DNA from: a virus
IMG/VR virus record: IMGVR_UViG_3300030117_003878
Location: 5,604-30,103 of that record
DNA length: 24,500 bases
Reading direction: 5' to 3' (one strand)
The translations under genes and the position numbers were made by a program. Of this stretch, positions 4,716 through 19,701 are shown one piece after another. Position 1 is the stretch's first letter, and each line of letters begins with the position of its first letter. The notes under the pieces were generated by a model. It was not told the DNA's origin, made no database searches, and saw only the letters and a program-made list of their open reading frames with translations.

Positions 4716-6188
4716 TTAGGCGAAGATGATCAGGATCTCATCGGCTCCCGAGGACGTGCCTTCGCAGACTCCGGTCATATCGAGCGTGACCTCCTCGGCC
4801 CCACGGTCAAGACTCACGTCCTGCTGGCGCATTCGGGGGGCGACCCACGCGAAGATCGAGCCGGCAGCTTGTCCCGTCTGACAGACGACGCTGAGTTGCT
4901 GTGAATTAGCCCCAGCGACCTCGGCAGCCTGGAAGGCGTAGGTATGGGCTGCCATGTTGTCGTCCTTGAGCGTCCAACCGGACAAGGTGGCCGTGATCTC
5001 GCGCTGGTTCATCGTGTAGCCCTGGGCCTTGTAAAGGGTGCCGAGCACATCGTCGCGGGTTGTGACCCCGAAGGAGCAAGACAGGCTCGCGTTGTTGATC
5101 TGCAGAGGCAGCCCCCCAGCTAGACCGTAGGGCGAGACGACAAGCTGACCGCTCGTGGCAGGCACGGGCGATCCGGCATAAGTCCCGGTCGGACGGAATG
5201 GGCGCATCGTCGTGTTGGTGGCTGACCACGTTGAGCCGGGGTTGGGATAGCCGCCGATTGCTCCTCGGGTAATTGTCCAGGTTGCCCCTGAGATCGCCGT
5301 GACCTTCACAGCCTCGGGGGCAGTGACGCCTCCATTCTCAAGGAGCCAATAGGTATTCAGCGCATCACCCGACGAGGCGAGCCCTTCGACCACGGTGACG
5401 CTCCCTTGGCCTGTTGTCAGATCAGTGTCAAGCCCCGTCTGGAAGAGGCGGTCGTGCCGCTGTCCGGTGCCCGAGACAGTGAACCGAGCAGCGTCATCAC
5501 CGCCCATCGTGAACTCGTAGGAGTCCGGGGTCCAGCCGCTGATTCGGTCGGCTGAGTTGTTGTTCATCAGCCAGAGGCAGCAAGCGTCTTCGGCGTCGTC
5601 TCGCTCATCGCTGGGCTTGTAGGAAATGACTCCCTTGACGGTGGCCGAAGCTGCTGGGGTGAAGGTGAGAGCGGGCTCGACCTTGATGTAGTCAGGGGTT
5701 GCGGCAGAGTTCACCTCGACGATGCGGCGAGCTTCAAAGAAGCCGGTTCCGTTCCCTGTCTCAACGATAACCCCATCTCCGACCGAGAAGCCTGTCACGC
5801 TGTTCACGTCCACCTTGACGACAGTGGATGAGCCACCACTGACCGCCGTCGTGGTGCTGGAGTTGTTGACGATCTTCCAGCCACCCTTGACGAGTAGGTC
5901 CGCGCCCATGTCAGGGATCGTGGTCAGCGTGCCCGAGGGCATCACATAGCCCTCGATGGAGCCCTCGGCGGTGCGCTTCTGCTCGATGCCGGGAACGCCC
6001 GTGGCGGTGCCGAACTTGTCCTCTCGGAGAGCAAAGGGAACCGACCCCCCGGCAGAGCCGCCGATCACTCGGATCGCGTCGGCCGCCTCGGGGTAGGACT
6101 CGCCAGCGGTGTCGGAAAGAGAATAGGAGGACTGGCCTGCGACGAAGGCCACAAGATCCCGCCCGATGTCAACCTTGGGTCCGGTCAT
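4716..6188 (-). CDS. Major tail tube protein
   Basis: This 490-residue, Gly/Ser/Thr-rich beta protein is encoded immediately upstream of the chaperone pair, the standard place for the tail tube subunit. It begins MTGPKVDIGRDLVAFVAGQS and is longer than most tube proteins. Residues about 115-200 contain VDVNSVTGFSVGDGVIVETG, resembling an inserted beta domain, and a similar short motif recurs around residues 250-320 (TGQGSVTVVEGLASSGDALN). This suggests two Ig-like or hub-like insertions on the tube. No enzymatic motif is seen. The ATG at 6188-6186 follows AGGAG at somewhat long spacing. The structural call is position-driven and fits the protein's composition. Confidence 0.82.
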   Translation of the reverse strand: MTGPKVDIGRDLVAFVAGQSSYSLSDTAGESYPEAADAIRVIGGSAGGSVPFALREDKFGTATGVPGIEQKRTAEGSIEGYVMPSGTLTTIPDMGADLLVKGGWKIVNNSSTTTAVSGGSSTVVKVDVNSVTGFSVGDGVIVETGNGTGFFEARRIVEVNSAATPDYIKVEPALTFTPAASATVKGVISYKPSDERDDAEDACCLWLMNNNSADRISGWTPDSYEFTMGGDDAARFTVSGTGQRHDRLFQTGLDTDLTTGQGSVTVVEGLASSGDALNTYWLLENGGVTAPEAVKVTAISGATWTITRGAIGGYPNPGSTWSATNTTMRPFRPTGTYAGSPVPATSGQLVVSPYGLAGGLPLQINNASLSCSFGVTTRDDVLGTLYKAQGYTMNQREITATLSGWTLKDDNMAAHTYAFQAAEVAGANSQQLSVVCQTGQAAGSIFAWVAPRMRQQDVSLDRGAEEVTLDMTGVCEGTSSGADEILIIFA

Positions 6189-11565: not shown

Positions 11566-12456
11566 TTAGTCCTCCTTCGGGACAAAGATGACGATGCAGT
11601 TGCATTGGTCACCGCCAGCACAGTCCGGGTCGGGTGTTGCGTATTCGTCTAGCTCATCCATTGAGAAGCGGGCTCCGTCCTTGCTGAGGCAGACCTGACA
11701 AGTCGCAGACTCCAGCATGGCTGAGCGGATCCCCTCGACGGCGTCCTCGGCCCTGGCTTCCTGCATCCGGCCCAGACCGAAGATCGTGTTCGTGTCTCGC
11801 TGGCCTGCCACGAGGTCGGCCCCGGGCGAGAGGGAGGTGACAGCCCCGGCGACGGTCTCGGCAATCGCGGAAGCCTCCAGCACCCCACCGATGGCCGCAC
11901 TTTGGATCGCGGTCAGGCTGGCGGCTCGGGCTCGGTCAGCCGCAGCCAGCGCCGATTTGCGGGCGATGTTTTCGATGGCCTCTTCGGGATCGATCTCGTC
12001 TGCCACGCTCTCGCCCTCGGCGGTCGGCTTCGGTGCCTTCACCTTCCGGCGGCTCGGGGCGAGCAGGAGCCGGTCGTCGGGCTCCATGCTGAGGAGATAG
12101 CTGAGTCCGGTCTCTGACATTGTTTTCCCATCCCTGATCTGCTTGACCAGCTTCTCGCTCCAGGGCACGGCAGGATCGCCACCCCAGAGCGCCCATGCAA
12201 CACGGCCCGGAGAAGGGAAGCCACGCTCGCCGGGCTTGAACCCCTCCCCCCGCTTGTCGACCTCGTGCCGCGCAAGCCATGCCCGCATCTTGATCGCCTT
12301 GTCCCGGCTGATCGGATCGCCGCCCGCCATCCTCCGAGCCCACGATACGGTGGCAGGGCGCAGCCCGTCGCCCGAGCGCCCCTCCTCGTGCCACTTCAGG
12401 CCGCGACGAAGCTCCGCCTTGACGCCCTCGGGCACGGTGAAGTTGATCTCACTCAT
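11566..12456 (-). CDS. Head morphogenesis-like protein with N-terminal phage domain
   Basis: This 296-residue protein overlaps the portal gene by eight bases. Residues about 9-107 carry a domain I recall from several phage structural proteins: RRGL, then RMAGGDPISRDKAIKMRAW, ARHEVDK, and RVAWALWGGDPAVPWSEKLV. Its function is not known to me. The middle is Ala-rich and helical. The C-terminus has C253xxC256 and C279, C285, C287 around a Pro/Asp-rich loop, matching the Cys/His end of SPP1 gp7 / Mu gpF-like minor head proteins (CxxC...G......P..C.C). This suggests a zinc-binding minor capsid protein near the portal. The assignment of the C-terminal half is moderate. Confidence 0.72.
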   Translation of the reverse strand: MSEINFTVPEGVKAELRRGLKWHEEGRSGDGLRPATVSWARRMAGGDPISRDKAIKMRAWLARHEVDKRGEGFKPGERGFPSPGRVAWALWGGDPAVPWSEKLVKQIRDGKTMSETGLSYLLSMEPDDRLLLAPSRRKVKAPKPTAEGESVADEIDPEEAIENIARKSALAAADRARAASLTAIQSAAIGGVLEASAIAETVAGAVTSLSPGADLVAGQRDTNTIFGLGRMQEARAEDAVEGIRSAMLESATCQVCLSKDGARFSMDELDEYATPDPDCAGGDQCNCIVIFVPKED

Positions 12457-15046
12457 CCTTGTCCCTTGATGCCCTGGGGTGGCCCTTCGGGAGGAGGTCG
12501 TTGTCGGTGATGTACTTCGGGTTACCTGGGCGGCCGGTGCGGAGCAGACGAAGGAAGGCGTTGACCCGACCCATCGACCACTGACCCCGAGTCATCCCTG
12601 GACGGTGCGAGACGCTGAACGCTCCCGAGCCTCGCCTGTAGACGGCCTTGAGCATCCGGTTGGTTGCTCGCTTGCTGGAGTCGTCGCCGACCGCCTCGTT
12701 GTGGGCCTTGACCTTGCGCTCCAGGGCCAGCTCGGTCTCCTTGCCGAGGTCCACGCCCTCGCCCTCAGCGCTTGCGCTGCCCGGCTTGTTCCGCTTTGAC
12801 CCCTCGATCCGATCTTCGGGAGGCGCGGGGGTGCTCGCGTCGTTGAGCACCTGGACCTCGTCGGGAGTCTCGACGACGATCCCGTCTCGGGTTGTCTCGA
12901 AGTCGCCCTCGTCAACAGACTTCGCTAGCTCCGGGTTTCGGGCCAGCCGGTCCATCTCCTCGCGGACGGAGCCAGTGCCGGCACGGTAGGCGCGGCGAAG
13001 CTCATCGCGGAAGACCTCGGCCAGCTTACCGACATCGGGGACGTCGACCTCGCGCATCTTCATCAGGTCGCCAGCACGGGCCATGCGCTCGGCGTACTTC
13101 GGGGCCATCGCCTCGCGCCAATCGACAGCGGCCTGGGCCATCGCCTCCTTTACGCCCTGCATCGGTGCCAGAGTCTCATCGAAGCGGACGACCTTCTCGT
13201 AATCGTAGAGATCGCGCCCGTTGATCGCCTTGCGGCCTGGAAGCTCCGCGAGCGTCTGCATCGACTCGCCCTCGGCCTCCACCTTGTCGCCCTGGTCGTC
13301 TGTTACCTCGTCCACTTTGGGCGCTGCCTTTGAAGCAGGGGGGGCTGGGCGCAAAACCTCTTTTTCTTCAATGGGCCTCGTGCGAGCCTCCTCTGGGGCA
13401 CGCTCTCCACCTAGAATCTCATCAGCTACCTCTCTCGGAAGGTTGAAGAAGTGAGCGATCATTGCTGCGCCAGTCTCACGACTCATCTCGCCAGCGTTGA
13501 CTGCCCTAACAATCTCGATTCCGCTGGTGACCTGGGCTCCATTGAGAGCAGTATCAGCCGCCTTGGATTGACCACCCCGCGATGCGAGTCCAACCTCAGC
13601 GGGTGACTCATTCTTGAGCCGGTGCTCCATCTCCTCCTTACTCTCGACCTCGGGCATCTCTGGCAGGCCGAGAGCGGCACGGACAGCCTCTTCGATACCC
13701 TGGTCAGGGAGCAGCGCACCTGCGTCGGCAGCGGTCTTGATTGCCTCGACAAGCTGCTTCGGGTCTCCGATGCTAATCGACCCGGGGACGATCTTCGGGA
13801 AGCCAGACGAGCGCTCGTAGTTCCACATGCAGAGCCGCTGGACGAGCGAGTGAGGACCGTGCGAGAGGACGGCTCCGATCATGTCCGCGGCGCTCTGGAG
13901 CGCCATCGTAAAGAAGTCCTGTTGGCCCTGGATGAGGCTGTAGGCCCCAGCCTTCTCTCCGGTGAAGAGGAAGGGGGCGAGGGCAGCCCGGGCCATGTCC
14001 TGTCCCGCCGACTTGCGAGCCTCACGAATGTCTGCGCCCTTCATCGGGAAGTCAGCGAACTTGAGCGAATAGCCGGGGGGCAGGCTTGCCCAGGCCCGAG
14101 CGCCCGTCCGCAGCTCTCGGAGGATCTCGTTGACCGTGGCTGAGTCGCCAGCGCGCGCGGTCGGGGCGACCTCGACGTAGGGGATCCCGAAAGCCCCGCG
14201 CTCGTAGCCCGACGCCTCCAGCTTGAGATACAGGCGGCGAGACTTCCAGCCCCCGTAGCAGGGACGGAGGATCGAGGTGCCCTCGGGTGCGTCTCCGTCT
14301 GGATCCCACACGAAGTGGAGCAGCTTCTCGGGGGGTAGGCTTGCGCCCACCGAACTGAACGAAGCCTGCTCGCCAAGGTCGGGATCGCCCACGTTGCTCG
14401 TCTGAGTGACCCCCCAGCCCGCTCCGTCCGGGTAACGGGTCCACTCGTAAACCGTTCGGGGCAGCATCGGAGAGAGCTGGTCGAGTCGGATCATCTTCGT
14501 CTCGCGGTCGAAGCGAGCCACGATCTCAAAGAGACTGAAGCCACGCCACACCGCCGAGACGGCTTGCTCGACGAACTGATAGAAGCCGCCGTGGACGTAC
14601 TCAAAAAAATTGGCCCGGATGAACTCCGCCTCCTCAAGCGCCGCTCGGTCGTCGCCAGCCGGCTCGACCTTCCAGTGTGACCGAATGATCGGCAAGCACC
14701 AAGCTAGGGTGATCGCCTTGATCACCGGGTCTTCTTGCCTCATCTGGTCGACGATTCCGACCTGATCCTGATAACCCCGCCACAAGTCCGGGGTCAGGTT
14801 GCTGTTCGCGTTCATATCGACGACGCCCGACGATGGATAGGTGCCCACGTCGGTCAGCCGGTCCCGCATCAGCCGAGCCGAGGCGGTGCGCGGCATCTCG
14901 CCCACGCCGGGGACGAAGCCATCCTCTAGGGCTTCCATGCCCTCCGGGTAGACCTTGAGCGCCCGACCCTCGACGGCGGCTGCCTCGGCCTGTTGTCGGG
15001 TAACGTAGATCGGGCCGAGCTTCGCCCATTCGGGAGCCTGGGACAT
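12449..15046 (-). CDS. Portal protein (Mu gp29-like) with long C-terminal extension
   Basis: This 865-residue protein is much longer than a typical gp29-like portal (about 500). Residues about 75-480 follow the family pattern: DQMRQEDPVIKAITLAWCLP, VSAVWRGFSLFEIVAR, LLHFVWDPDGDAPEGTSILR, and PFLFTGEKAGAYSLIQGQQD. It ends with the repeated helix pair around KQLVEAIKTAADAGALLPDQ. Residues about 480-620 are a Glu/Lys/Pro-rich linker. A helical region at about 620-720 resembles the N-terminal helices of Mu F-like head morphogenesis proteins. The last ~60 residues hold a second recurrent phage domain (SHRPGMTRGQWSMGRVNAFL, then NPKYITDNDLLPKGHP). The ATG at 15046 abuts the terminase stop (TAGATG). 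The portal forms the DNA entry vertex. Confidence 0.88.
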   Translation of the reverse strand: MSQAPEWAKLGPIYVTRQQAEAAAVEGRALKVYPEGMEALEDGFVPGVGEMPRTASARLMRDRLTDVGTYPSSGVVDMNANSNLTPDLWRGYQDQVGIVDQMRQEDPVIKAITLAWCLPIIRSHWKVEPAGDDRAALEEAEFIRANFFEYVHGGFYQFVEQAVSAVWRGFSLFEIVARFDRETKMIRLDQLSPMLPRTVYEWTRYPDGAGWGVTQTSNVGDPDLGEQASFSSVGASLPPEKLLHFVWDPDGDAPEGTSILRPCYGGWKSRRLYLKLEASGYERGAFGIPYVEVAPTARAGDSATVNEILRELRTGARAWASLPPGYSLKFADFPMKGADIREARKSAGQDMARAALAPFLFTGEKAGAYSLIQGQQDFFTMALQSAADMIGAVLSHGPHSLVQRLCMWNYERSSGFPKIVPGSISIGDPKQLVEAIKTAADAGALLPDQGIEEAVRAALGLPEMPEVESKEEMEHRLKNESPAEVGLASRGGQSKAADTALNGAQVTSGIEIVRAVNAGEMSRETGAAMIAHFFNLPREVADEILGGERAPEEARTRPIEEKEVLRPAPPASKAAPKVDEVTDDQGDKVEAEGESMQTLAELPGRKAINGRDLYDYEKVVRFDETLAPMQGVKEAMAQAAVDWREAMAPKYAERMARAGDLMKMREVDVPDVGKLAEVFRDELRRAYRAGTGSVREEMDRLARNPELAKSVDEGDFETTRDGIVVETPDEVQVLNDASTPAPPEDRIEGSKRNKPGSASAEGEGVDLGKETELALERKVKAHNEAVGDDSSKRATNRMLKAVYRRGSGAFSVSHRPGMTRGQWSMGRVNAFLRLLRTGRPGNPKYITDNDLLPKGHPRASRDKDE

Positions 15047-16480
15047 CTAGAAGTCCTCCATTGAGAATCCGCCCCCACCATACCGGAGGGCGGAGCGGGG
15101 AGCACGGATCTCATTCATCGCGGCAATGTCCGGCTGCTCCATGACACCGTGCCGGCCAATGACGTAGTAGCGAAGAGCATCAGGGAAGTGATCATCCTCG
15201 CCGGTCTTCCTCGGGACGTTGCTATGCGCCTTATCGTTGTAGCGATAGGAGAGGAGTGACCCGTGTATCCCCAGGACCCCGGCTGGATAGCGACTCGTGC
15301 GACTTGTCTCAGTTAGGTGGCGAGACACAAAGAGGTGACGCTTGCCGGTGTGATCCTGGAAGCGTGCCCGCGTTGCTTCAATCCCGTTGGGGATATGTCT
15401 CTCGATAGGGTTGAGACTGTACTGAAGGTCACCCACAAGGACCCCGGCAGACCGGAATGTGTTTTCATAGATGTGCACGGAGTTGAGCCCCGTCTGAGCG
15501 TTGCGTGCCTTCCCGGCGGGGTCGACGTAGCAGTCCAGCATCGACATTCCATACGACTGGAGTAGGTCCGCACACTGGTTCGCGTGGACTTGCTCCAGAG
15601 TGTCCGACACGCAGACCTCCTCGACTACCACCTCACCGAGCCCATCTACATCCTGGATCACAAGGAAGGCAGGGCGGCGACCCCCGAAGTCAAGCGCCCC
15701 GTAGGTGGGTCGGGTTGGGTCGGGCTGCACATCTACGACGGACCCATTTGCGGGATCGTAGGTCCAGAAGACCACCCCCGAGAGCACTACGAACTCGCCT
15801 TCCAAATAGGCTTGAGCCAGCTTGTCAGACAGGTTCAGGCTCTCGATATACCCCAGTGGGAGGTGGGGGTTGTCTGCCGTCCTTGCTTTGATCATCACGC
15901 GATTGGGGGCAGGCTTGCCGAACTCCTCAAACATCCAGCCCATCGCGGGCACTCCAGCGATAGACCTTCGGAGCTGGACCGAGCGGTTGTCTCGGATACG
16001 GGAGTTGAAGATCCTCCACGCGTCGTGGCGCACGAGGCGAGGCTCATCCAGGCAGCCCCACGCATAGGTGGCCCCTTCAAGGGAGCCCGGGTCATCAGCG
16101 GACCCAAAGACCCACTCAGCCCCATTCCACATCGTCAGCATCCGGTCCCGAGCGGACCAGTCAGACACTAGCGGGCCGAGGCATTCAGTGGCGACAGCCG
16201 AGCCAGAGGGCCACCGAGTAGCTCCAGGGAAGAAGTCTACGATTGCCCGATACAGAGTCCTCCGCTGGACGGGATAGGTGGGCGACACGAGGAGCCCCGT
16301 CAGCCCTGGGTTGAGGACAGTGTTGCGAAGGGCCTCGGCTATCAGCCAGGAGGTCTTACCCGAGCCCCAGCCGCCTGCGAGCAGGACAATATCTTCTGGG
16401 GCTTCATGCGCTACGGCTTGAGCACCGAAGGGCTTGTAAGGGATCTCAATCTGTTTCACTCTTGAGCACATCAGGGACAT
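15047..16480 (-). CDS. terL: Terminase large subunit (packaging ATPase/nuclease)
   Basis: From the ATG at 16480 this is a 477-residue protein. The Walker A motif is GGWGSGKT (residues 36-43) and the Walker B is YAWGCLDE (about 139-146). The C-terminal RNase H-like nuclease shows ALDFGG (261-266), CYVDPAG (Asp319) and DDHFPDALRY (428 on), which are the expected metal-binding acidic positions. It cuts and pumps phage DNA into proheads. The start is uncertain: a longer TTG start at 16552 lies deep inside the small terminase gene and lacks a good ribosome binding site, while ATGs at 16480 and 16471 and a GTG slightly downstream are alternatives. All overlap the upstream gene, so coupling is likely. 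Confidence 0.93.
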   Translation of the reverse strand: MSLMCSRVKQIEIPYKPFGAQAVAHEAPEDIVLLAGGWGSGKTSWLIAEALRNTVLNPGLTGLLVSPTYPVQRRTLYRAIVDFFPGATRWPSGSAVATECLGPLVSDWSARDRMLTMWNGAEWVFGSADDPGSLEGATYAWGCLDEPRLVRHDAWRIFNSRIRDNRSVQLRRSIAGVPAMGWMFEEFGKPAPNRVMIKARTADNPHLPLGYIESLNLSDKLAQAYLEGEFVVLSGVVFWTYDPANGSVVDVQPDPTRPTYGALDFGGRRPAFLVIQDVDGLGEVVVEEVCVSDTLEQVHANQCADLLQSYGMSMLDCYVDPAGKARNAQTGLNSVHIYENTFRSAGVLVGDLQYSLNPIERHIPNGIEATRARFQDHTGKRHLFVSRHLTETSRTSRYPAGVLGIHGSLLSYRYNDKAHSNVPRKTGEDDHFPDALRYYVIGRHGVMEQPDIAAMNEIRAPRSALRYGGGGFSMEDF

Positions 16481-16835
16481 TGAGCAGGACCTGAACCTGC
16501 CCTGAACCCTGCCCAGATTCGGCTTGTTCAAGCCCAGAGATACGAGCCTCAAGGTTGAGCATTGAAGCCAGTGGTCCGAGCCTCCCGCTGCCTAGCGCGG
16601 CCCGCTGATGACCCCGTAGGCGACCAATGAACTCAGCCCTCTTGAAGTCGAGATCGTCCTCACTCATCTCCTGCTGATAGCCCTGGATCAACTCTTCTCG
16701 GTAGCGGTCAATCGTTCGGGTGGTTACTCCAAACTCGTTCGCCATCGCCCGCTTGATCTGAAGGCTCCATCCCCTCTCCGAGATAGCTCTTTCAAGGATT
16801 GAGATCCGCCTCATCTTCTCTTCTTGCGTGGTCAT
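16446..16835 (-). CDS. Probable terminase small subunit (HTH)
   Basis: This 129-residue protein is encoded just before terL. I chose ATG 16835-16833 because AGGTG is placed six bases upstream; a GTG at 16844 would put that ribosome binding site inside the gene. Residues 24-50 (SLQIKRAMANEFGVTTRTID) form a clear helix-turn-helix, followed by a basic and helical middle and an Asn/Val/Gln C-terminal tail. Small terminase subunits carry an N-terminal HTH that recognises pac or cos sites and a C-terminus that contacts TerL. The gene order fits. No sequence-specific hallmark beyond the HTH was seen. Confidence 0.78.
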   Translation of the reverse strand: MTTQEEKMRRISILERAISERGWSLQIKRAMANEFGVTTRTIDRYREELIQGYQQEMSEDDLDFKRAEFIGRLRGHQRAALGSGRLGPLASMLNLEARISGLEQAESGQGSGQVQVLLNVPDVLKSETD

Positions 16836-16872
16836 TTTGTTCACCTATAGGGACGAATTCTTGTCTTGTACG

Positions 16873-17307
16873 CTACCAGCCGACCCGCACAATGACCCGA
16901 GGAGATTCATCCCCAGAGCAGTAGAGAGACACGCAATCAATCGACCAAACCACCTTGTCATCACGGACGATCCCAGCCTTTTCCATAGCGTCCAGCGCTG
17001 CCTTGACCACGTTGTCCATATCCGGCTTCTGAGTGTAGGGCTCGCGCTCCATTGGCTTCGTCTTCCAGACCATCCGCTGGGGCCTCGGGAAGAGGGCGAG
17101 GACGCTGACGGACACGGGGCAATCAAGTGGAGGGGAGCCCCACGACCTCATCATTGTCGAGGCTGCCACCGCTTCCCACTGCGCGGTCTTCTTCGGGGTG
17201 TAGGTCCTGACCCTTCCGCGCGCAACCGTAGCCCTCGGCCTTCCCTTGCCCACGGGCGGGCCTGGGATCGTTGCCGACCACAAGCGCTCCTCTTGGTCTG
17301 CCGTCAC
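16873..17307 (-). CDS. rusA: RusA-family Holliday junction resolvase
   Basis: This 144-residue protein matches the RusA family in length and motifs: an N-terminal IPGPPVGKGRPR (residues 14-25), YTQKPDMDN at about 91-99 with the acidic KPDxDN motif, and KAGIVRDDKVV (110-120) with the second acidic pair. These Asp residues bind the catalytic metal in RusA. The enzyme resolves branched DNA, which in phages clears junctions before packaging. The start is GTG 17307, overlapping the upstream stop by four bases (GTGA). Its place between the modification genes and terminase supports a role in preparing replicated DNA for packaging. Confidence 0.93.
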   Translation of the reverse strand: MTADQEERLWSATIPGPPVGKGRPRATVARGRVRTYTPKKTAQWEAVAASTMMRSWGSPPLDCPVSVSVLALFPRPQRMVWKTKPMEREPYTQKPDMDNVVKAALDAMEKAGIVRDDKVVWSIDCVSLYCSGDESPRVIVRVGW

Positions 17308-18056
17308 GACTGACCCTTCCTCACTAAGCTGATCTCCGGGTAATCGCTTTTCGTCTTCTTCATGCGGACAAGCTCGGGGTAGCGGCGAGTCAATTTTCTA
17401 ATTGAGCGCAAGTCTTTCATTTTCCGCGCGGTGACCCCGTCAGACTGGAGCCCGCCTTGCCCCGAGTAAACCTTCGACTTCGCCGCAATGTAGTCCATTC
17501 GCATCACTGCTCCATCTCGAACGTAATGAATCAGACTAAGCTCGTAATCTTCTTTAGTCTCGCACTCTAGCGTCACATGTGGCTCTCTGATTACAATTCC
17601 GTACATCTGTCCAATGCAGAAGCGTAAGCCGAACTCTGTCCTGTGCTTCATGAACATCGCGTTAGCCGTTGGGTAAATCCCCCAAAAACTAAGCCCTCGC
17701 GAAAGCACTTCCCTGAAAGCCTTTACGGTGAGCTTGGGGAGGTCCGTCACCGGAGCCACTTTTTTGTCGTTCACCTTGCGCAGCAAGCCGTTTAAGTCAT
17801 CGTCTAAAACGACGAGATTGGTTCCTTCTGCGTAAGAGGAGTGAATCGTGTTCCGAGCCTCCCTGACGCCCTTCGTTGTTAGCTTTAAGTTGAACCCCAT
17901 CGAGCGCGCGGGTTCGGCATACATCTCAGCCTGCTCTTCCCCGGCGACATAGACGTCCACGAGGCCAGGGTCGACCCCAGCGTCCACGATAGTCTTCCCG
18001 GTTCTTTTCGTCAGGCTGTCAGGCCTGTTGTAGCTCGGTATCGCGTAACGGATCAT
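17304..18056 (-). CDS. TAGT-like glycosyltransferase (GT-A fold)
   Basis: This 250-residue protein begins MIRYAIPSYNRPDSL, the nucleotide-sugar-binding strand of GT-A transferases. It has LVVLDDDLNGLLRK at 81-94, where D85-D87 would be the metal-binding acidic motif, and ETKEDYELSLIHYVRDG at about 166-182, which fits the ED catalytic-base region. A GQGGLQSDG loop follows at about 199-207, then a helical, basic C-terminus. This architecture matches the TET/JBP-associated glycosyltransferase (TAGT) group described in phages by comparative genomics. The neighbouring dioxygenase and the four-base overlap with it support sugar transfer to a hydroxymethylated DNA base. The sugar and base are not identifiable from sequence. 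Confidence 0.8.
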   Translation of the reverse strand: MIRYAIPSYNRPDSLTKRTGKTIVDAGVDPGLVDVYVAGEEQAEMYAEPARSMGFNLKLTTKGVREARNTIHSSYAEGTNLVVLDDDLNGLLRKVNDKKVAPVTDLPKLTVKAFREVLSRGLSFWGIYPTANAMFMKHRTEFGLRFCIGQMYGIVIREPHVTLECETKEDYELSLIHYVRDGAVMRMDYIAAKSKVYSGQGGLQSDGVTARKMKDLRSIRKLTRRYPELVRMKKTKSDYPEISLVRKGQS

Positions 18057-19015
18057 ATTGGCCTCGCCGCCAACTCTTCGGCGCGTTTCCTTGCCCGCTC
18101 AAGCTCTTGTTTCGGCGGCAAGCACTTTTTCATATTTTCTCTAGCGTAAAACACGACACTGATGCGCTCCCAGCCACCCTGCTCAGGCAGCATTTTCGGC
18201 CCAACCCCCTCCATTAAAGGCATCCCGTGCATTTCGTGCGGGTCGAAGAAGATAACGTCGCCGTCCTGCGCATCAATGGCGAATCGGTGCCGTGGGAAAC
18301 AAAGCTCGCCACCCGTGTACTCGCCGCGACGGTAGTAAGTCATGGCCCCAAACCCTGGACGATAATCACCGGCGTCGAAGTGGTACCCGGCTGAGACGGA
18401 GTTGTTTACCGTCAACGTGGTAAATGGTGTTCCAGCGATAGTGTACGCACTAGGTATTTTGCCGACGAACTGCTCCTGAGCTAAACAGCGTCGCCTAACG
18501 TGCTTCCTCATCAGGCTGTGTACTCTTTCGCACAGCGGGACGAGGGTGTCCCACCTCACTCGGTCTTGAGCCGTAAAAGCTGTCTCTCGGCAATACTTAA
18601 AACGCCCGTCACGACCGAAATACCCAACGATTGCAGAAGAGACAGTGGCCGCCCTTGTTGACCTGCTTAGGGTCCCGTCTGGGTTAATGTTGCGGTAACG
18701 CTTGCCGTCCCACGCACGAGTCTCCCCCTCCCAGTCACTTTTTGCTGTGACCGCATAGGTTCCACGGTTGTCAGATGTGCGCTTTCGGACCTCATGAAGA
18801 GCTTCGTATGCGCCGGAAAATGAGTCATCCCCAGCCAGCGCTTTCGGCAGGTAAACAGCGACCAGCTTACCGTCCGCTGAATAAACCCTCGTAGGAGCAC
18901 TACCCTTCCCCAACAAGAGGTCCCAGTCTTCTTTCTGGCAAACGGTGCCCTCAAGGCTAGCCACCGCTTCCGGCGTGGCGACAGACGGCATCCTAATGCG
19001 CTCAACCAAGGACAC
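18053..19015 (-). CDS. TET/JBP-type 2OG-Fe(II) DNA dioxygenase
   Basis: This 320-residue protein has the double-stranded beta-helix core of 2-oxoglutarate/Fe(II) oxygenases in its C-terminal half: YHFDAGDY at about 211-218 (H212, D214 iron ligands), YTGGELCFP at 233-241, DGDVIFFDPHEMHG at 251-264 (H263 probable third ligand), and WERISVVFYARENM at 282-295 (R284 for the cosubstrate). The 'GD...GFG..TYYRRGEYTGG' spacing and the 'RISVVFY' ending resemble TET/JBP enzymes more than prolyl hydroxylases. It would oxidise a pyrimidine methyl group in DNA. The N-terminal ~180 residues are less clear and may bind DNA. The GTG start overlaps the upstream TAG (TAGTG), after GGAGGAGGGG. Confidence 0.8.
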   Translation of the reverse strand: MSLVERIRMPSVATPEAVASLEGTVCQKEDWDLLLGKGSAPTRVYSADGKLVAVYLPKALAGDDSFSGAYEALHEVRKRTSDNRGTYAVTAKSDWEGETRAWDGKRYRNINPDGTLSRSTRAATVSSAIVGYFGRDGRFKYCRETAFTAQDRVRWDTLVPLCERVHSLMRKHVRRRCLAQEQFVGKIPSAYTIAGTPFTTLTVNNSVSAGYHFDAGDYRPGFGAMTYYRRGEYTGGELCFPRHRFAIDAQDGDVIFFDPHEMHGMPLMEGVGPKMLPEQGGWERISVVFYARENMKKCLPPKQELERARKRAEELAARPI

Positions 19016-19701
19016 TACCCCTCCTCCGCAAGCAATCCTTCTGCAGTCACAGAAACAGCACGAACAACAGCCTCGGTAGAGGACAATCCGTCAGAAGCCC
19101 AAAACGCTTTCAACACTTCAATGTCGGCCATGAATGCCGGGTGGTTTTCCGTCGTAAGTAAAAGCTGAAACATTCTCAGGTGGGCCTCAGCCACCCCAGC
19201 ATCCGCCTCACTTGTGGCACTAGGGCTGTCGGCGCTTTCACTCGCCTCTACCTCGCGCACGCTCGCTGGAAGCGCTTCCTCAAGGGAAGCTAGTAGGCGC
19301 ATCGTTTCGTCTTCATCAAACCCAGCAACCAGGGCTCCCTCTTCGCCTATCTCAGAGATGATCCTGGCAAGCTCGCCTTCATCCCAAAAAGCAAGCTCGT
19401 TCAGTTTATTGTCGGCAAGGGCGAGAAGTTCGCTGTCTGTTGGATCTAGGTCCATCAAGCGGACGGGGACGGAGGAGAGCCCGAGAAGCTTCGCCGCCTT
19501 CAGTCTTGTGTGCCCCGCGATGACCATTTTGTCAGCCTTGCGCGCGATAATGGGAGCGGAAAAGCCGAATCTTTTTATAGAGTTAGCGACGTCGTCAACT
19601 GCGTGATCGTTGACCCTCGGGTTCTTGTCCCAGGGGACGAGTGAGCCGATATCCATCCACTCAGCGGCTGGTTCGTTATCTCTAGTTCCCGCTTTCGCCA
19701 T
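19015..19701 (-). CDS. ParB-like domain protein
   Basis: This 228-residue protein has an N-terminal ParB/sulfiredoxin-like domain at about 18-107: IGSLVPWDKNPRVNDHAVDD, then SIKRFGFSAPIIAR, MVIAGHTRLKAAKLLGLSSV and DSELLALADNKLNELAFWDE. The GHTR motif (63-66) marks the nucleotide-binding or catalytic loop of the family. The C-terminal helical domain (about 170-222) resembles those found on ParB proteins linked to DNA methylases. Phage ParB-like proteins often accompany base-modification genes, where they may bind target sites or act as nucleases. It is first in the minus-strand set and overlaps the dioxygenase start by one base. The ATG follows GAGG. Confidence 0.85.
   Translation of the reverse strand: MAKAGTRDNEPAAEWMDIGSLVPWDKNPRVNDHAVDDVANSIKRFGFSAPIIARKADKMVIAGHTRLKAAKLLGLSSVPVRLMDLDPTDSELLALADNKLNELAFWDEGELARIISEIGEEGALVAGFDEDETMRLLASLEEALPASVREVEASESADSPSATSEADAGVAEAHLRMFQLLLTTENHPAFMADIEVLKAFWASDGLSSTEAVVRAVSVTAEGLLAEEG

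Follow-up and report, generated by a model that had tools for sequence, protein, structure and literature searches.

The glycosyltransferases of Pfam family PF20691 are called TAGT, for TET-associated glycosyltransferase, and their linkage to TET genes was reportedly already described by Iyer in 2013. Burke 2021 and Pyle 2024 are said to report a methyltransferase-linked phage pathway of TET activity and 5hmC glycosylation. In the passage of PMC12730594 that cites Burke 2021, a phage TET acts on 5mC; the same paper describes the kinetoplastid base J pathway, in which T is oxidised by TET/JBP and then glycosylated. The trio of ParB-like, TET/JBP dioxygenase and TAGT genes is itself already known in isolates and is not unique to the phage studied here. 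Arthrobacter phage Altadena (gp60/62/63) and Mycobacterium phage Indlovu (gp1-3) carry the three genes in the same order as our locus, and neither genome has a C5-methyltransferase. The Indlovu cassette also adjoins the terminase, as ours does. Both differ from our locus in having an extra PIG-L-type deacetylase, to which Indlovu adds a P-loop kinase ahead of the terminase, and their TETs are only ~20-23% identical to ours.

The DNA analysed (the window) is a stretch of 24,500 nucleotides that covers bases 5604–30103 of a linear IMG/VR virus record, 30,103 bp long and probably a fragment of a phage genome. Ten Ns at record position 5594-5603 stand immediately before window position 1, so the record is probably a scaffold join there. 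The cassette comprises three minus-strand genes at window 17304–19701, encoding in transcription order the ParB-like protein, the TET and the glycosyltransferase (Table 1). The ParB and TET genes overlap by 1 base (stop TAG, start GTG), the TET and glycosyltransferase genes by 4 bases, and the glycosyltransferase and RusA genes by another 4. The initial annotation had placed three overlapping genes of these kinds here, directly upstream of RusA and terminase. Its coordinates were right, and downstream on the same strand come RusA, then a small ORF where a terminase small subunit would be expected, then TerL. A Pfam search with the small ORF gave no match. The RusA-like resolvase, although directly after the cassette, is not itself a modification enzyme. 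As listed from TTG, the TerL ORF overlaps its upstream gene by ~100 bases, and its true start is probably downstream of that codon. The portal protein (window 12449-15046, 865 aa) has a C-terminal extension of >300 aa with a sub-threshold match to DUF5824 (23.7 vs 25 bits). A scan for promoters gave no result better than chance. By their curated-family matches and their recurrence as neighbours in unrelated phages, the cassette ORFs are judged not to be chance ORFs.

Table 1. Positions of the cassette and the genes downstream of it, in window coordinates.
Feature	Coordinates	Strand	Details
ParB-like protein	19015..19701	-	228 aa, start ATG; first gene of leftward operon
TET/JBP 2-oxoglutarate/Fe(II) dioxygenase	18053..19015	-	320 aa, start GTG
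TAGT-family GT-A glycosyltransferase	17304..18056	-	250 aa, start ATG
RusA-like Holliday-junction resolvase	16873..17307	-	PF05866 100.3 bits (cut-off 22.8)
Small protein at terminase-small-subunit position	16446..16844	-	Assigned by position only
Terminase large subunit (TerL)	15047..16552	-	phrog_2 97.9 bits

All three cassette products exceeded their Pfam cut-offs. The first matched ParB_N (PF02195) at 35.0 bits against a cut-off of 26.3, and a motif alignment showed that it retains NPR and GHTRLKAA, two motifs of the ParB N-terminal fold. PHROG profile searches gave phrog_620 at 130.9 bits and phrog_498 at 111.4 bits, the latter annotated as a phage DNA methyltransferase and matched over its positions 31-173. 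Against TIGR00180 the protein scored 41.2 bits, below the cut-off of 58.45. Among the genes examined, none stood out as a ParA.

The second product matched Tet_JBP (PF12851) at 58.1 bits (cut-off 34.9) and no other Pfam family. H212, D214, H263 and R284, the residues singled out in the initial annotation, are all in place, and none of them varies across the 41 relatives aligned. From alignment and model, they are read as an HxD...H iron site plus an R for 2-oxoglutarate on a double-stranded beta-helix fold. When the AlphaFold2 model (pLDDT 88.7) was compared with the PDB, the best 26 fold matches were all of the TET/JBP family (CcTet, NgTet1, human TET2, CMD1), with FTO and AlkB only after them; the enzyme thus did not group with protein or small-molecule hydroxylases. 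Its predicted activity is oxidation of a pyrimidine 5-methyl group in DNA. Mycobacteriophage TET/JBP genes (gene 2 of loci L006 and L012) are annotated 'queuine tRNA-ribosyltransferase', a label also carried by PHROG 6059 and probably a propagated error.

The third product matched TAGT (PF20691) at 34.9 bits (cut-off 27.5) and phrog_842, beta-glucosyl-HMC-alpha-glucosyltransferase, at 33.3 bits. Its DxD-type metal motif, DDD, lies at residues 85-87, as annotated, with D85 and D86 invariant in 28 relatives. The AlphaFold2 model (pLDDT 90.3) matched mostly GT-A glycosyltransferases in the PDB, plus some sugar-nucleotide transferases, and the protein is predicted to transfer a sugar to a hydroxymethylated DNA base. 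The first alignment of this family took in neighbouring genes of Phelemich (gp3), MO526 and HTVC112P, none of which is a TAGT: the Phelemich and MO526 proteins proved to be ADDT and the HTVC112P neighbour is annotated as an FkbM methyltransferase. Loci L065 and L070 each have one ParB-TET pair next to two to three genes of the TAGT family, which suggests longer or mixed sugar chains.

Scanning viral contigs for exact peptides of the window TET brought up no relative, and an alignment profile was required instead. The closest TET relative found, at 38% identity, belongs to a Haloechinothrix alba prophage (L167), whose locus runs ParB, TAGT-like glycosyltransferase, TET and then TerL. The order of its trio thus differs from that of the window, and its glycosyltransferase and ParB fall under the Pfam cut-offs, at 17 and 22 bits. 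The initial annotation had emphasised the exact trio: its order was confirmed, but the trio is shared with Altadena, Indlovu and, reordered, this prophage. Other phages have TETs of the same broad group, likewise with no C5-methyltransferase, and an amino-acid tail (kinase, ADDT, FAD oxidoreductase) where the window has a glycosyltransferase. Mycobacterium phage Phelemich carries ParB, TET, ADDT, FAD oxidoreductase and kinase ahead of the terminase; Microbacterium phage MO526 has TET-ADDT-FAD oxidoreductase-kinase in the same position, with an unconfirmed ParB-like neighbour. Several IMG/VR contigs contain ParB-TET-ADDT-kinase modules. Pelagiphage HTVC112P combines ParB and TET with the FkbM-type methyltransferase, and two more actinobacterial chromosomal loci read ParB–kinase–TET and ParB–TET–ADDT–kinase. 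Phage DLP6 has a TET and a TAGT and lacks a C5-methyltransferase. Its DNA is restriction-resistant, the text leaving unsaid which enzymes failed to cut (PMC8228603), a phenotype that fits modification with no particular base indicated.

The cassette is very likely a DNA base hypermodification pathway. The combination of TET/JBP, TAGT and ParB had been read in this way from the start, and that reading is well supported by the profiles, by the fold comparison and by synteny seen across phages and prophages that are unrelated. We propose, with moderate confidence in the statement as a whole, that it works after replication. On phage DNA, the TET/JBP enzyme would hydroxylate thymine at its 5-methyl group to give 5-hydroxymethyluracil (5hmU). 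TAGT would then attach a sugar at the hydroxyl so created, and the product would be a glycosylated hydroxymethyluracil resembling base J. The ParB-like protein, whose translation immediately precedes that of TET and is coupled to it, would probably carry the oxidase to phage DNA or select its sites. Late action on replicated DNA, before packaging, is plausible because the cassette stands at the start of a leftward structural-gene operon running on through terminase and head genes. The modified base would presumably shield phage DNA from host nucleases; the timing of such protection before or during packaging, suggested in the initial annotation, is read from gene position. No chemistry on any ParB-type TET was found in the literature surveyed, and no dUMP hydroxymethylase was noticed among the genes examined.

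Judged from gene context, thymine is a likelier substrate than 5mC, because the window-like branch lacks a methyltransferase and occurs alongside thymidine-hypermodification enzymes. The competing account starts from cytosine: a methyltransferase outside the fragment, or the host, would supply 5mC, which TET would oxidise to 5hmC for glycosylation by TAGT. We consider this unlikely, though it is the alternative that survives best. The 30-kb record, probably a fragment, contains no C5-methyltransferase by the phage C5-methyltransferase profile; such a gene could lie beyond it, or the host may provide the mark. The absence nevertheless extends to nearly all related records. Whole-record profile searches of 55 of them found a C5-methyltransferase over the cut-off in two, phage Melnitz and one IMG/VR contig; in 44 of them ParB reached E<=0.001. 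Only one of 45 window-like viral records had a C5-methyltransferase over the cut-off. None was present in the complete genomes with ParB near TET (HTVC112P, Phelemich, Altadena, Indlovu), and MO526 was also without one.

ParB and the methyltransferase split between two groups of TETs. Among 80 viral loci with window-like TETs, with ParB scored by a custom profile, ParB lay upstream of TET on the same strand in 73 and overlapped the TET start in about 45. A contrast set was seeded with the TET of Melnitz, whose neighbour is an HhaI-like methylase; this methyltransferase-linked clade had a methyltransferase in 38/39 cases and ParB in 0/39. On a tree of 51 TETs the split is a single change, so these tallies describe two lineages, with relatives counted in place of independent events. 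The window TET itself sits on a long branch whose placement in the TET tree is uncertain. One window-like locus only (L029, G015) combines ParB with a strong match to a C5-methyltransferase, and is possibly an intermediate between the two groups. The initial annotation had cited phage TET activity on cytosine as a precedent. This precedent belongs to methyltransferase-linked TETs; the window branch has no methyltransferase and sits beside thymidine-hypermodification enzymes.

Those enzymes are ADDT, an amino acid:DNA transferase, and its P-loop kinase partner. ADDT (PF18724) was found in 22 of 47 ParB-type records, and P-loop nucleotide kinase 3 exceeded its Pfam cut-off in 11 of the 47. With local HMMs, ADDT was detected in 23/80 window-like loci vs 0/71 methyltransferase-type loci. 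A two-round kinase HMM proved too broad, matching 27/71 methyltransferase-type loci as well, and only the Pfam kinase counts were used. ADDT and TAGT never co-occurred where ~6 cases were expected (hypergeometric 3.7e-5, relatedness ignored). At least nine switches from one tail to the other are needed on the TET tree, some of them between near sisters (Phelemich/Indlovu, L036/L024), and this alternation means that one TET product seems to serve both, sugar and amino acid. In phages M6, ViI and phiW-14, which have hypermodified T, 5hmdU is thought to be the common intermediate and is phosphorylated by a 5hmdU DNA kinase (PMC6449724). By analogy, 5hmU made through TET oxidation of thymine would be the simplest common intermediate for both tails. 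This alternation with thymidine-type tails argues against a cytosine substrate, although it is possible that kinase/ADDT chemistry acts on 5hmC instead of 5hmU. Also on the side of cytosine are the published precedent of a phage TET on 5mC, in the Burke 2021 passage already mentioned, TAGT-like transferases in 10/71 methyltransferase-type loci, and the TAGT of phages T2/T6, which acts on glucosylated 5hmC (PMC13216743).

The base-contact residues, as read from alignments, do not decide between thymine and 5mC. D217 and R292 align with the base-reading positions of TET2 (N1387/H1904). D217 is common to the methyltransferase-linked TETs (34/34), in favour of cytosine, while N stands there in those actinophage ParB-type TETs that were checked, with L or I at the second position (N/L or N/I in Altadena and Indlovu), so the residues do not point to thymine. 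Against cytosine, all window-like TETs (79/79) have R at position 292, but all methyltransferase-type TETs (34/34) have D or G. D217 as a mark of a 5mC enzyme was dropped, as the H. alba TET, from a genome with no C5-methyltransferase, also has it. In the 4.7-Mb H. alba genome (a draft assembly) a PF00145 search found no C5-methyltransferase, while a control search did find the chromosomal ParB. This absence from a whole host genome also speaks against cytosine; first treated as decisive, it was demoted to suggestive only because about half of the sampled actinobacterial genomes lack PF00145.

Returning to oxidation of thymine, a targeting role for ParB is inferred from its recurrent linkage to TET and their translational overlap. 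Phages commonly carry ParB-like genes, and in some relatives other genes stand between ParB and TET, so ParB might be an independent partition or regulatory protein, a mere neighbour of the modification genes. This appears doubtful given its same-strand, often overlapping position in most window-like loci, its presence on the same strand at three actinobacterial chromosomal loci and its absence from the methyltransferase-type records. In many loci (the group of L024, L025, L028, L031, L040 and L045-L049) two tandem ParB-like genes lie upstream of a TAGT-like gene and TET. It is very improbable that the TET/GT pair acts on RNA or a small molecule and not on DNA: the queuine label on related phage genes favours this, but the best fold matches are all TET-family DNA dioxygenases, ahead of FTO and AlkB, Pfam gives Tet_JBP alone, and the partners are ParB and, in relatives, the DNA-modification enzymes ADDT and kinase.

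For the ParB-TET group as a whole, we put at about even the chance that it is a methyltransferase-free, ParB-targeted head acting on thymine, with interchangeable tails (TAGT, or kinase plus ADDT), and so a phage counterpart of base J differing in substrate from the 5mC TETs. If so, ParB-type phage TETs would offer a way to write 5hmU or its glycosides into ordinary DNA in a single step, and hypermodification pathways would prove to combine a common oxidising head with decorating tails that can be exchanged. The choice between thymine and 5mC is addressable with existing isolates, namely Altadena, Indlovu and Phelemich.

What this study adds to the known systems is the partner split, ParB vs methyltransferase, and the replacement of TAGT by ADDT tails behind ParB–TET. 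Like the window, the methyltransferase-linked TET/5hmC pathway of Melnitz-type phages follows TET oxidation with glycosyltransferases, some of them TAGT-like; by contrast, it starts from phage-made 5mC and has no ParB. The base J pathway (JBP plus glucosyltransferase) resembles the route proposed here in that T is oxidised and then glycosylated, and oxidation of thymine in phages with no methyltransferase would be its bacterial parallel. Base J synthesis is eukaryotic, with a J-binding domain, a different transferase and no known ParB.
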